From assembly GCA_014190435.1 (NCBI GenBank), contig BJGJ01000007.1, positions 1 through 51,143 of the forward strand: a stretch of 51,143 nucleotides of DNA, read 5' to 3'. Made by a program: the position numbers and the translations under genes. This DNA is from Methylocystaceae bacterium (GTDB taxonomy: Bacteria; Pseudomonadota; Alphaproteobacteria; Rhizobiales; Beijerinckiaceae). The notes below the pieces were generated by a model. The model searched no databases. It was not told the origin of the DNA and worked only from the letters and a program-made list of their open reading frames with translations. Shown piece after piece: positions 16,360 to 49,683 of this stretch. Position 1 is the first letter of the stretch; each line of letters opens with the position of its first letter.

Positions 16360-17328
16360 GTGACAGATGACATAAATTATCGGCCAAAATTCATTAGTGA
16401 AGAAAGACCTCGCCATCCAGAGAAAGCATTTCGTCCGGATCATGAGCCCATACCAAAACCTGACTGGCTGCGCGTAAAGGCTCCTGGTACACTGGGCTGG
16501 AACCAGACCCTGGAGTTGCTCACTCAGTATAAAATTACCACGGTCTGTCAGGAAGCCGCGTGTCCAAATATTGGTGAATGCTGGCAAAAGAAACATGCTA
16601 CTTTTCTCATCCTTGGGGATATTTGCACGCGCGCCTGCGCATTTTGTAATGTGGCGACTGGTCGACCTGAAGCTTTGGATAGAGAAGAGCCAGACCGCGT
16701 TGCCGCCGCTACAAAAGCGCTCGAGCTGACTCATGTCGTGATCACATCCGTTGATCGTGATGATCTTGATGATGGTGGGGCAGGGCATTTTGTCGCCACC
16801 ATAAAGGCAATACGATCCCAATGTCCGCAAACAACAATAGAAATTCTTACACCAGATTTTCTAAAAAAAACAGGCGCTTTGGAGCAACTGATAGAGGCTA
16901 AACCAGATGTTTTTAATCATAATATAGAAACAGTACCCTCTCTTTATCCGACGGTTCGACCGGGTGCGCGTTATTTTCATTCAGTCCGACTGTTGCAACG
17001 CGTTAAGGAGATGGCGCCCACTATGGTGACTAAATCTGGTCTTATGCTCGGACTTGGCGAAAATCGGCATGAAATTTTGCAGGTCATGGATGATTTGCGC
17101 TGCGCGCATGTAGATTTTTTAACATTAGGTCAATATTTGGCGCCTAGCCGAAAGCACCATCCAGTCGCCCGCTATCTTACCCCCGAGGAATTTTTTACAC
17201 TAAAACAACTCGCAGAAACGCGTGGGTTTAAACTGGTAGCGGCTTCGCCATTGACGCGCTCGTCATATCATGCTGCCCAAGATTTTGATAAATTGAAGCA
17301 AGATCAACAAAATTGCCTAAATCAATAG
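16360..17328 (+). CDS. lipA: Lipoyl synthase
   Basis: A 322-residue radical-SAM enzyme that inserts two sulfurs into octanoyl groups on lipoyl domains. Both clusters are visible: auxiliary-cluster cysteines 63, 68 and 74 ([12 protein letters not shown]) and the radical-SAM motif CTRACAFC with Cys89, Cys93 and Cys96; the C-terminal RSSYHA motif carries the serine ligand. The start is GTG 16360 with AAGG about 8 nt upstream. In many Rhizobiales lipA follows pdhABC-lpd; here it follows dnaE, and pdhABC lies about 30 kb away. The next gene (ratA-like) is the usual downstream partner. Confidence 0.97.
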
Positions 17329-44660: not shown

Positions 44661-44710
44661 TCAGAGGAAACATCAGCAAAATCGACTGTTTAAGTCGCTT
44701 TTTCAACTGG

Positions 44711-44782
44711 CTTCCCTCCGCCGGCATTATCCGGATCAGGTTCGACGGGTTCATCTCAGCCACCAAAGCGGCGCCCCTCGCC
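44711..44782 (-). promoter_or_regulatory. TPP riboswitch (THI element)
   Basis: Read on the minus strand, the region has the conserved thi-box parts: GAGGGG-GC at the 5' side (44782 on), GGCTGAGATGAACCCG, then GAACCTGATCCGGATAAT, GCCGGCGGAGGGAAG at the 3' side (44711). These form P1-P5 of the thiamine-pyrophosphate aptamer. It lies about 100 nt before the thiC start, so thiamine pyrophosphate should repress thiC, probably by hiding the ribosome binding site, since no terminator is visible between. Confidence 0.95.
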
Positions 44783-45052
44783 AAGATAGATAAGTTACAG
44801 CCTTCTCCTCAAGCTCGCAAGGTTAAGCGATTTGAGAGACAAAGTGAGCGAGAAAGGAGATTTAGGCCCATTTTGGAAATCTACTATTTTCTAATCAAAT
44901 TAGAATGTGAAACAAAAAAGAGCTGCTTACAGATTTCTCTCCCGTATCACGGAATTGCGACTGTAATATCTATTGAATTTAACAACTCTTAAAATCAACA
45001 GATGCGTGTCTTGTTATTAGATGCGTGTCTTGTCATTTTTTACGTCCAATGC
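44783..45052. other. Intergenic region between the thiC leader and mrp
   Basis: No gene is seen. The thiC promoter should lie near its left end. A 19-bp tandem repeat (45000-45037) is listed separately. Confidence 0.5.
45000..45037 (+). repeat. 19-bp tandem duplication
   Basis: AGATGCGTGTCTTGTTATT (45000-45018) is followed immediately by AGATGCGTGTCTTGTCATT (45019-45037), identical but for one T/C change. It ends 15 bp from the stop of mrp. Two copies only; a recent slippage duplication or paired site. Confidence 0.8.
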
Positions 45053-46331: not shown

Positions 46332-47273
46332 TCATGCGAACATGCTCGCAGGATGTTCAATAAAGTGCTGAATTTCTGCCAATAATTGCGCACCAAGCGC
46401 GCCATCAATCGCACGATGGTCGCATGTCAGCGTTAAGGTCATGACTTTTGCTGCAACAGGAACGCCATCACGCACAACAACGCGATCTTCTCCCTTGCCG
46501 ACTGCAAGAATTGTTGATTGAGGCGGATTGATCACGGCGTTAAAGCGTTTAACGCCATACATTCCTAAATTAGAAACAGAACTAACGCCACCTTCGTATT
46601 CTTCAGGTATAAGATTACGCTCTTTAGCGCGCCGAGCAAGCACCTTAATCTCATCAGAAATTTCTCGAACAGATTTTTTCTCTGCAAACTGTATGATTGG
46701 CGAAATTAATCCTCCCGGCACAGAAACCGCAACACCAATATTGGAGTGTTTATGTTTCAACATTGCTTCTGGAGTATAGGTTACATTTGCCTCCGGAACA
46801 CGCTGCAAGGCAAGCGCCAGGGATTTAATTAAATAATCATTAATTGACGTTTTCCATAAACGCTGACCATCTGAGGTCTCAGGCGCATCTCCATTGAAAT
46901 CCTCACGCAGCCGCATGAGATTATCGATTTCACAATCCACATCCAGCGAGAATTGAGGAATGTTCCTAGCGGATTCTGTTAATCTGCGCGCTATAGCTTT
47001 TCGCATTAGCTGATGCGAGATTTCTTCATAACTCCCGATTACATAATAGCGTCGCGTATGATCCTTCTCATCTATCGGTGAGATAGTATCTCGATAAGCT
47101 TTTAGGGATTGATCTACACTTGGTCGATGAGCATCAAAAGAAAGAATATCTTTTTCAATAATTCTTCCATGCGGACCAGTTCCAACAACTCCCTTAAGAT
47201 CAATCGATTTATCTCGTGCTAAGCGGCGGGCCAGCGGCGTTACAAAAATCCGTGGAGCTTCTCGTGAAATCAC
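46332..47273 (-). CDS. pdhC: Dihydrolipoamide acetyltransferase (E2) lacking a lipoyl domain
   Basis: From GTG 47273 the product has 313 residues, against roughly 420-450 for usual E2. It contains only the peripheral-subunit-binding domain (about 7-45: FVTPLARRLARDKSIDL, GTGPHGRIIEKDI) and the acyltransferase core with the active-site DHRAIDG near the C-terminus. The N-terminal lipoyl domain with its DKA lysine is missing. The open frame extends upstream to 47387, but that part overlaps the end of pdhB in another frame and is not E2-like. No start has a good ribosome binding site; TTG 47279 is an alternative. The frame is +1 relative to pdhB, so a frameshift would give a single PdhB-PdhC chain. 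Confidence 0.85.
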   Translation of the reverse strand: MISREAPRIFVTPLARRLARDKSIDLKGVVGTGPHGRIIEKDILSFDAHRPSVDQSLKAYRDTISPIDEKDHTRRYYVIGSYEEISHQLMRKAIARRLTESARNIPQFSLDVDCEIDNLMRLREDFNGDAPETSDGQRLWKTSINDYLIKSLALALQRVPEANVTYTPEAMLKHKHSNIGVAVSVPGGLISPIIQFAEKKSVREISDEIKVLARRAKERNLIPEEYEGGVSSVSNLGMYGVKRFNAVINPPQSTILAVGKGEDRVVVRDGVPVAAKVMTLTLTCDHRAIDGALGAQLLAEIQHFIEHPASMFA

Positions 47274-47289
47274 CGCCAATTGATCACGT

Positions 47290-48675
47290 TTAATCCCGGT
47301 AGAGAACGGCTTTTGCCGAATGAATGATTTCCTCAATGCTTGGCAAAGCAAGTTTTTCAAGATTTGCCGCATACGGCATAGGTACATTTTTACCGGTTAC
47401 ACGCAAAATTGGCGCATCGAGATAATCAAAGGCTTCTTCTTGAATACACATAGCGAGTTCAGCAGATATGCCGCATTGCGGCCAACCTTCTTCAATTGCG
47501 ACACAGCGGCCTGTTTTTTTTACTGATTGGATTATTGTTGGTAGGTCCATCGGCCGCAAAGTACGGAGATCTATGACCTCCGCTTCTATCCCTTCTTTAG
47601 CGAGCTCCCCAGCTGCAGCTAGAGCGTATATAACGCCGATTGAGAAAGAGATGAGTGTTACATGCTCGCCAGCCCGCGCGATGTATGCGCGACCAATCGG
47701 CAAAACAAAATCTTCGATGGCGGGGACATCAGCGCTTTTGCCGTATAAAATTTCATTTTCTAGGAAAACGACAGGATTATCGTTTCGGATCGCCGCCTTA
47801 AGTAGGCCTTTAGCGTCTCGTGCGTTAGAGGGCGCGATCACAATCAATCCCGGGATCTGCGCATACCAAGCCGCGAAATCCTGGCTATGTTGAGCCCCAA
47901 CGCGCGCTGCTGCGCCATTTGGTCCTCGAAACACAATCGGACAGTTTATTTGACCGCCACTCATGTAAAGGGTCTTCGCAGCCGAATTCACAATGTGATC
48001 GATTGCCTGCATTGAAAAATTAAACGTCATAAATTCTATAATTGGCCGCAACCCGGCAAAAGCTGCGCCAATGCCAATGCCTGTAAAACCATATTCTGTT
48101 ATAGGCGTATCGACGACGCGCTTTGCGCCAAATTCTTGTAAAAGCCCCTGCGTCACCTTGTAGGCACCTTGGTATTCTGCAACCTCTTCACCCATAATAA
48201 AAACATCAGAGTCGCGCCGCATTTCCTCAGCCATGGCGTCCCGTAACGCCTCACGCATTGTCATCGAAATCATCGTTGTGCCAGCGGGAATTTCTGGCGC
48301 GTCGATTGGGTGACGCGTGCTTGACGGCGCTGCATCGGGCTCAATCGAGTGTGGTGTGCTTATTTCTTCAGAATGTGTATTTTTTGTAAGTTCGGAAGAT
48401 GACGGGGCTGCGCTGATATCATCAAGGCTTCCACCCTCTTCAACCATGATAGCGATTGGCGCATTTACCGCCACATGTTCCGTACCTGCTGGAATGAGGA
48501 TCTTTGCCAAGACGCCATCATCTGCAGCTTCAACCTCCATCGTCGCCTTATCGGTTTCGATTTCAGCAACGACATCTCCAGCACGAACGCTATCCCCTTC
48601 GTTTTTCAACCATTTGGAAAGTTTGCCCTCCTCCATGGTTGGTGACAGCGCTGGCATTAAAATATTTATACTCAT
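47290..48675 (-). CDS. pdhB: Pyruvate dehydrogenase E1 beta subunit with N-terminal lipoyl domain
   Basis: 461 residues. A lipoyl domain (1 to about 80, lipoyl-lysine Lys43 in [11 protein letters not shown]) is joined by a Ser/Pro/Glu-rich linker (about 85-130) to the E1-beta transketolase-like domains ([14 protein letters not shown], the [17 protein letters not shown] block, and the C-terminal EEGWPQCG). The fused lipoyl domain is the alphaproteobacterial form. With E1-alpha it decarboxylates pyruvate. It lies 12 bp downstream of pdhA. In this operon it carries the only lipoyl domain seen. Confidence 0.96.
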
Positions 48676-48687
48676 CCCTGACCGCCT

Positions 48688-49683
48688 TTACATCAACACG
48701 TCAGTAAAGAGTTCCTTGACTTCAGGCTCTTTATCTGCAGTTGCAAATTCAACGGCCTCAGCAACAATCTTGCGCACGCTTGCATCAATCTTTTTTAATT
48801 CTTCTTCACTCACGCCGTCCGCTAAGAGTCGCAAGCGCACTTGTTCAATCGGATCATGTTCCTCACGCATCCGATCAACTTCTTCCTTAGAGCGATATTT
48901 TGCTGGATCAGACATAGAGTGACCGCGATAGCGATAGGTCAAAATCTCCAGTAAATACGGTCCCTTTCCACTTCGACACCAGTCAATTGCTTCTGATGCA
49001 GCCGCCTTTACGACACGAATATCCATACCATCGATCTGCTTGGCGGGGATCGAAAAAGCTTCCCCTCGACGATGACATTGCGTCTGAGCTGTTGCGCGTG
49101 AAATAGCCGTGCCCATCGCATAACGATTATTCTCAATGATAAAAACAATAGGCAACCGCCAAAGTGCCGCCATATTAAAACTTTCGTAGACCTGTCCCTG
49201 ATTTGCGGCGCCTTCGCCAAAAAAGGCTATAGAGACGCAGCTATTCTCACGATAGGCATTCGCAAAAGCGACGCCTGCGCCGATGGGTGCGGGAGCTCCA
49301 ACTATGCCATGCCCACCATAGAAATTTTTTTCGCGCGAGAACATATGCATAGAGCCGCCCTTGCCCTTAGAATAGCCGCTGCGCCGTCCGGCTAACTCCG
49401 CCATCACGCCCTTAGCATCCATGCCCATGGCGAGCATATGACCGTGATCGCGATAACTTGTTGTAAATTGGTCGCCCTCTTTCGCCGCCATTTTTACGCC
49501 GACAACAACAGCCTCTTGGCCAATGTAAAGATGACAAAATCCAGCGATCACGCCCATGCCGTATAATTGACCGGCCTTTTCTTCAAATCGCCTAATGAGC
49601 AACATTTCACGCAGCGCAAAGAGTTCTTCATCACGGCTTAAGCCCATTTGCGCAGAGGTGGGGCTGATTTGATTATGCGCCAT
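48688..49683 (-). CDS. pdhA: Pyruvate dehydrogenase E1 alpha subunit
   Basis: 331 residues, thiamine-diphosphate-binding. Seen: the RRFEEKAGQLYGMG N-terminal helix, GFCHLYIGQEAV, YRDHGHML, the TPP motif FFGEGAANQG ending IIENNRYAMGT (Glu in place of the commoner Asp of GDG), and the phosphorylation-loop region YRYRGHSMSDPAKYRSKEE (key RGHSMSDP). First gene of pdhABC; the promoter should lie in the 80 bp before it. No lpd (E3) gene follows pdhC. Confidence 0.96.
   Translation of the reverse strand: MAHNQISPTSAQMGLSRDEELFALREMLLIRRFEEKAGQLYGMGVIAGFCHLYIGQEAVVVGVKMAAKEGDQFTTSYRDHGHMLAMGMDAKGVMAELAGRRSGYSKGKGGSMHMFSREKNFYGGHGIVGAPAPIGAGVAFANAYRENSCVSIAFFGEGAANQGQVYESFNMAALWRLPIVFIIENNRYAMGTAISRATAQTQCHRRGEAFSIPAKQIDGMDIRVVKAAASEAIDWCRSGKGPYLLEILTYRYRGHSMSDPAKYRSKEEVDRMREEHDPIEQVRLRLLADGVSEEELKKIDASVRKIVAEAVEFATADKEPEVKELFTDVLM

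Follow-up and report, generated by a model that had tools for sequence, protein, structure and literature searches.

The pyruvate dehydrogenase (PDH) locus of this Methylocystaceae bacterium carries an E2 gene, pdhC, whose product has no lipoyl domain, and we conclude, with a probability of roughly 80%, that the locus encodes a working complex whose swinging lipoyl arm sits on E1 and not on E2. Active-site coupling in 2-oxoacid dehydrogenase complexes rests, in the textbook view, on a swinging lipoyl arm that E2 carries: E1 acetylates the lipoyl domain, the acetyl group passes to E2, E3 returns the arm to its oxidised state, and a binding domain docks E1 or E3. The window analysed here is the whole stretch of 51,143 nucleotides from contig BJGJ01000007.1 (assembly GCA_014190435.1), and the features on which the argument depends are given below in its coordinates.

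46332-47279, minus strand: pdhC, pyruvate dehydrogenase E2 without a lipoyl domain, 315 aa (open reading frame, Pfam; probable start, placed by alignment of relatives)
46338-47033, minus strand: PdhC acetyltransferase core with the DHRAIDG motif (Pfam PF00198, E 7e-73)
47142-47249, minus strand: PdhC peripheral subunit (E1/E3)-binding domain (Pfam PF02817, E 5.1e-15)
47280-47292, minus strand: pdhB TAA stop (47292-47290) and ten-base spacer to the likely pdhC start (from the sequence; spacing equal in the relative G015)
47290-48675, minus strand: pdhB, E1-beta with an N-terminal lipoyl domain, 461 aa (open reading frame, Pfam, NCBIfam NF008854)
48445-48663, minus strand: PdhB lipoyl domain, residues 5-77, the only one found at the PDH locus (PF00364, 73.4 bits)
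48547-48549, minus strand: codon for K43 of PdhB, the expected lipoyl-lysine, which we assign from general knowledge of the motif (from the sequence)
48688-49683, minus strand: pdhA, E1-alpha, upstream of pdhB and in the same direction (open reading frame; Pfam PF00676)
16435-17298, plus strand: lipA, lipoyl synthase, elsewhere in the window (TIGR00510, 364.5 bits, cut-off 310.25)

The first-pass annotation of this DNA had described pdhC as opening directly with the E1/E3-binding domain and lacking a lipoyl domain. That description holds. The open frame, which runs from 46332 to 47387 on the minus strand (351 aa) and lies one base off the pdhB frame, matches only E3_binding (residues 47-82) and 2-oxoacid_dh (residues 119-350) in the Pfam domain search, with no match to PF00364 (lipoyl). 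The DHxxxDG core and the subunit-binding domain expected of a textbook E2 are therefore both present, and the N-terminal lipoyl domain is absent. Compared with the mitochondrial-type PDH E2 model, TIGR01349, the binding domain and core of the window PdhC align end to end, but the first 134 profile positions are missing: the alignment covers positions 135-436 of 437 and scores 343.5 bits, below the NCBIfam cut-off of 445. For PdhC from another genus of the family (L065), the same model is matched over positions 1-437 with 542 bits.

The same annotation had given the frame as 46332-47387. A frame of that extent is present as described, but the gene most likely starts at 47279, judging from the start sites of relatives; in the stretch ahead of the pdhB stop, 32 codons are, as had been stated, pdhB sequence read out of its own frame. 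Translation probably begins with the TTG at 47279-47277, ten bases past the pdhB TAA, because this codon lines up with the ATGGCG at which many Methylocystis pdhC genes open. The residues that follow it, MAVISREAPRIF, can be aligned to MALVTPDSGAPRIF and to comparable starts from other species. A GTG at 47273-47271 is also a possible start. By eye, no prominent Shine-Dalgarno-like stretch precedes pdhC, in agreement with the earlier remark that the gene has no good ribosome binding site.

In the window PdhB, the lipoyl domain is followed by two E1-beta (transketolase) domains (Pfam), separated from it by a linker of 56 residues according to the profile models, and the protein scores 806.8 bits against NF008854 (NCBIfam cut-off 454). 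Of the 53 PDB sequences listed for PdhB, not one has a best-matching stretch that takes in both the lipoyl and the E1-beta portion. Between the window and G015, dN/dS is ~0.10 for pdhC (dN 0.087, dS 0.88) and ~0.07 for pdhB (dN 0.063, dS 0.91). The lipoyl-less pdhC is under purifying selection.

The missing domain is not peculiar to this assembly; the lipoyl-less E2 that the first-pass annotation had pointed out is real, being kept across the genus and seen in independent assemblies. Our genus sample comprised 38 same-genus genomes and the window genome (G000). No PdhC was obtained from G012, G020, G028 and G034, and 35 Methylocystis PdhC loci were read, two of which (G008 and G029) are cut by a contig end, leaving 33 with a readable start. 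In 33 of 33, the window included, the E2 frame consists of the binding domain and core with no lipoyl match, and a lipoyl-less E2 frame was likewise found in 10 of 10 sampled genomes of the sister genus, g42, which we take to be Methylosinus. The binding domain, the core and the DHRAIDG-type motif are retained in these proteins. Profiles for this 43-genome survey were built from the loci fetched here, and Pfam and NCBIfam were run only on the window and some chosen relatives. PdhB was found to bear a lipoyl domain in 37 of the 43 genomes (31 in the survey, five in longer stretches from G004, G014, G018, G024 and G038, plus G007); in G001, G011, G019, G030, G031 and G032 the DNA examined did not reach the PdhB lipoyl region, and the domain is present in every genome (37/37) where PdhB is readable far enough. 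The window E2 falls inside Methylocystis in the E2 tree. Among the matches listed, the closest named matches of a related E2 include M. rosea SV97, M. silviterrae FS and M. suflitae NLS-7. All 10 g42 genomes match PF02461, presumably pmoA/amoA, so that g42 looks like a methanotroph genus.

Lipoyl carriers were typed in eight near-complete Methylocystis genomes (G002, G006, G007, G010, G021, G022, G024 and G038) and in the sister genome G079, with the outgroup G077 left out. All 69 lipoyl/biotinyl hits at E 0.001 or better were typed by sequence and neighbours. They comprise nine SucB (DKV motif), nine PdhB, nine E2s of a leucine-degradation-type cluster (AKA motif, read in eight), AccB (EAMKT), carboxylases (EAMKM; one by its N-terminus only), GcvH, HlyD-like or comparable weak fragments, and the additional E2 that G010 and G024 possess. 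The neighbours of the branched-chain-type E2, read in G022, G079 and G007 and named from sequence, are leucine-dehydrogenase-like, HMG-CoA-lyase-like and carboxylase genes. Among the 69 typed hits there is neither an E3 with a lipoyl domain nor a free lipoyl protein, and they include no further pyruvate-type E2 in six of the eight Methylocystis genomes or in G079. With all lipoyl-type hits typed, PdhB is the sole PDH lipoyl carrier in those six.

G010 and G024 differ. Each has a second PDH-type operon whose E2 bears its own lipoyl domain (ETQKG motif). The full order was read in G024 (L164), where this E2, which is above no NCBIfam cut-off, comes after an E1-alpha that scores as pyruvate dehydrogenase (TIGR03182, 436.2 bits, cut-off 393.85) and an E1-beta without a lipoyl domain (NF006667, 404.1 bits, cut-off 321), with an acetyl-CoA-synthetase-like gene adjoining; in G010 (L163) the synthetase-like gene and the E2 were read. 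The first-pass annotation had named a second full-length pyruvate E2 elsewhere in the genome, if it were the expressed one, as telling against its own reading, and that objection has force as to the presence of such an E2 in G010 and G024, but not in general. The second operon could supply PDH activity or even lipoyl groups in these two genomes, and finding it slightly weakens the case for an arm on E1.

The competing explanation that fares best, although we consider it improbable, is that lipoyl groups are borrowed in trans from SucB, from the branched-chain-type E2 or, where present, from the second PDH-type E2, with the PdhB domain secondary. SucB and the branched-chain-type E2, both with lipoyl domains, are found in all eight typed Methylocystis genomes, and a precedent exists in OdhA, which, according to PMC8146983 and PMC7568260, depends on the lipoyl groups of another E2, that of pyruvate dehydrogenase. 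The actinobacterial OdhA, an E1-E2 fusion, resembles PdhC in having an acyltransferase active site and no lipoyl domain of its own; it is unlike PdhC in that it is a single E1-E2 chain served by the lipoyl groups of AceF, the other E2, whereas here the frames are separate and the stop is kept. Borrowing would also be the less economical route, given a PdhB lipoyl domain that is tethered to the very E1 needing it and is never missing where it could be read.

A little less probable again is that a normal pyruvate E2 elsewhere does the work and pdhC is a minor enzyme or a relic. The second lipoyl-bearing E2 of G010 and G024 would fit this idea, as would the state of the window genome, a 2.16-Mb assembly of 167 contigs that is only 66% complete; because of that incompleteness, the absence of a further E2 from the window genome has to be judged from its relatives. 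Six of the eight near-complete relatives, however, have only SucB and the E2 of the leucine-degradation-type cluster besides pdhC, and pdhC is under the selection described above. What can be read of the window genome agrees with them: it holds two E2 genes, pdhC and SucB, together with four transketolase-domain matches, assigned by size and place to PdhB, SucA and transketolase- or DXS-like frames. PF00364 is matched above its cut-off in four places, namely SucB, PdhB and two biotinyl frames. The E3 candidate (480 aa) starts at its FAD domain, and no lipoyl match was found on its contig.

Nor did a hidden lipoyl gene turn up in the seven gaps between pdhB and pdhC that were read: the lipoyl profile, run on every frame of at least 40 codons in the loci concerned, matched nothing but the PdhB domain at E ≤ 0.01. 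What these gaps contain is a short antisense gene, frames of other, unrelated kinds, or a small hydrophobic frame. At L077, L078, L076 and L048 the antisense gene has 160-172 codons and is presumably DUF29-like; L048 has further frames as well.

The first-pass annotation had also proposed that a deletion and a +1 shift joined the E2 to PdhB, so that a frameshift, programmed or accidental, would yield a single lipoyl-E1beta-E2 chain. Frames one base apart, and a window pdhC without a good ribosome binding site, are what would commend this idea, which we regard as very unlikely. Both genes lie on the locus in 35 genomes, and in eight further genomes no pdhB was present on the locus examined. The distance from the pdhB stop to the first codon of the PdhC binding domain is 35-55 nt in 19 of the 35 (40 in the window) and 133-1250 nt in the other 16, and the stop stands ahead of the binding domain in all 35. 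In G007 (L111, L118) pdhB and pdhC are unlinked, at C1:729924 and C1:2319321, and its PdhC is divergent. A fused PdhB-PdhC frame was not seen in any of the 43 genomes. Because many pairs are widely spaced or unlinked, the family cannot depend on a fusion made by frameshifting. The comparison of pdhBC junctions in relatives that had been suggested thus gave a lipoyl-less PdhC throughout, with a separate pdhB stop in every pair; the proposed deletion was right in that pdhC has lost a lipoyl segment, but the loss is ancient and did not join pdhC to PdhB by a frameshift. pdhC stands as a gene of its own and is probably translated by coupling where it abuts pdhB, and coupling in such tight arrangements is a reasonable way to account for the poor start of the window pdhC. 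As for an assembly or binning error at the junction, the 167 contigs are the one thing in its favour, and we set it aside, together with chance, as having next to no likelihood, because G015, which is 86% identical to the window, has the identical junction, the absence of the lipoyl domain is conserved genus-wide, and G022 and G006, assembled in one or two contigs, have the same architecture.

Outside the two genera, PdhC has a lipoyl domain in 25 of 26 comparison loci, which were drawn from family members, Caulobacteraceae and others (the count omits L056, L068 and L072, which contig ends truncate, and the split locus L147). The exception is L148. PdhB has its lipoyl domain in 25 of the same 26, the remaining locus (L140) being cut. 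In an E2 tree of 63 distinct sequences, Methylocystis and g42 form one clade (support 99/98), and the lipoyl-less trait needs two changes, the second being L148; the tree puts a single loss before Methylocystis and g42 diverged. The L148 locus belongs to G749, which is 2.3 Mb in size and represents a different family, and in which pdhA, a lipoyl pdhB, a pdhC frame of 322 codons and an lpd-like gene stand in a row. The order of G749 is represented by four genomes in the collection. Two of these, G602 and G682, retain the PdhC lipoyl domain, and G499, on one contig, has a PdhC frame of 288 codons that opens at the binding domain beside a lipoyl PdhB. Sharing of one loss by G749 and G499 gave a p-AU of 0.247, on a long branch. 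The PdhC lipoyl domain has thus been lost independently at least two times in Alphaproteobacteria.

In a class-wide search, 298 of 387 genomes matched. Among the matches listed, the E2 frames have at least 417 codons except in the window, G749, G805, G476 and G753, with the proviso that the length of a frame does not by itself establish a lipoyl domain and that short E2s among the weaker matches may be missed; G499 fell below the threshold of this search and was found by a later one. Short E2 frames in G455, G338, G376 and G213 (L136-L139), G753 (L149) and G080 (L068) run off contig ends and were discounted as evidence, and that of G476 was discounted likewise, judging from its coordinates. 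G805 (L147) was rejected as a lipoyl-less case: its PdhC lipoyl domain and the rest of its E2 lie in two overlapping frames, as a real split or a sequencing error. The lipoyl tree, which is poorly resolved (78 columns), gave no sign that the PdhB lipoyl domain had been replaced by that of PdhC. The PdhB lipoyl domains of the two genera have one origin in 64% of its bootstrap trees, and the window's own domain is not firmly placed.

Because the lipoyl-less E2 is conserved and selected and PdhB is the only PDH carrier in six of eight relatives, an E1-borne arm is the best-supported reading, which supports the main inference of the first-pass annotation that the complex runs on the lipoyl domain of E1-beta. 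If E1-beta bears the only arm, all three visits, to E1, E2 and E3, fall to it. The domain content, the conservation, the lack of another PDH carrier in the six relatives and the one ancestral loss in the two genera come from the sequences; for the lipoylation of PdhB, the docking and the route of the arm, we suggest the following. Each PdhB would present one lipoyl domain on a flexible linker. E1 would decarboxylate pyruvate and acetylate the lipoyl domain of its own or a neighbour's E1-beta. E1 would be docked to the PdhC core through the PdhC subunit-binding domain, allowing the E1-beta arm to visit the acetyltransferase site, and the arm would then pass to E3, docked on an adjacent binding domain, for reoxidation. 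PdhC would serve as scaffold and catalyst only.

A longer PdhB linker was considered as a compensation for the missing arm but is not borne out: linkers of 53-89 residues in the two genera, compared with 41-83 in the comparison set (some genomes counted twice, relatedness uncorrected), overlap in range and are not clearly longer than in loci with two carriers. The linker between the binding domain and the core of PdhC (47034-47141 in the window, minus strand) measures 32-42 residues in the lipoyl-less clade versus 39-52 in the comparison set, with relatedness uncorrected. As a guess, a shorter PdhC linker may keep E1 and its arm nearer the core.

With the alphaproteobacterial PDH of the Zymomonas mobilis type (lipoyl E1-beta, NF008854), the window locus shares PdhA, the lipoyl PdhB, the PdhC binding domain and core, and the gene order; it differs in that PdhC there retains its own lipoyl domain, as in 25 of the 26 comparison loci. 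The PdhC of Z. mobilis itself reportedly has one. For Mycoplasma hyopneumoniae, Matic et al. (2003) are said to have described a PDH with the lipoyl domain on PdhD (E3). Short NCBIfam E2 models, NF008815 (308 positions) and NF011416 (347 positions), place the binding domain close to their beginning, and we take them to stand for Mycoplasma and Streptococcus proteins. PMC7873978 states that PDH lipoyl domains are usually on E2, with exceptions on E3, as on PdhD of M. hyopneumoniae, and, in Zymomonas, on E1; its text places the Zymomonas domain on PdhA, whereas the title it cites says E1-beta. The M. hyopneumoniae complex would thus share with ours an E2 without a lipoyl domain, to judge from the domain on PdhD, but its arm is on E3, whereas in our locus E1-beta bears the arm and the E3 candidate lacks one. 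Because E2s without a lipoyl domain, their arm being placed on another subunit, are already known (E3 in Mycoplasma), the arrangement is surprising to a specialist yet not without precedent. The passages considered from PMC10415282, PMC4433191 and PMC3610235 contain nothing decisive. Among the matches listed, the titles and abstract starts of the open-licence PMC literature, which leaves subscription papers uncovered, gave no such arrangement for Methylocystis, Methylosinus or other Alphaproteobacteria.

The lipoyl-less E2 is real, conserved and recurrent, and is most simply explained by an E1-borne arm. We also think it likely, though with somewhat less confidence than we attach to the locus itself, that the E1-borne lipoyl domain of Alphaproteobacteria is a full acyl carrier, that the complex can do without the E2 lipoyl domain, which has been shed at least twice, and that PDH coupling in Methylocystis and its sister genus comes wholly from E1, mirroring the E3 arm of Mycoplasma. 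If true, a natural complex with its only arm on E1 would show that attachment of the arm to the core is unnecessary, and it would allow the purpose of the lipoyl domain on the alphaproteobacterial E1-beta to be tested cleanly. Cultured Methylocystis species carry the lipoyl-less E2, which makes the proposal directly testable. Lipoyl proteomics and annotation that expect a lipoylated pyruvate E2 would misread Methylocystis.

Within Methylocystis, the window genome and its closest E2 relatives, G015 and G008, form a sub-lineage of small genomes (2.1 Mb at 98% completeness for G008). Their GC content at the pdh locus is 46-48%, that of the whole window being 47%, and the window and G015 sit on a long branch in the E2 tree. 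PF02461 has no match in these three genomes and one to four in the four other Methylocystis and ten g42 genomes tested; either methane oxidation was lost, or multicopy pmo genes were dropped in binning. The window also contains a TPP riboswitch at 44696-44788 (minus strand, 72.7 bits), and the gene downstream of it is presumably thiC-like.
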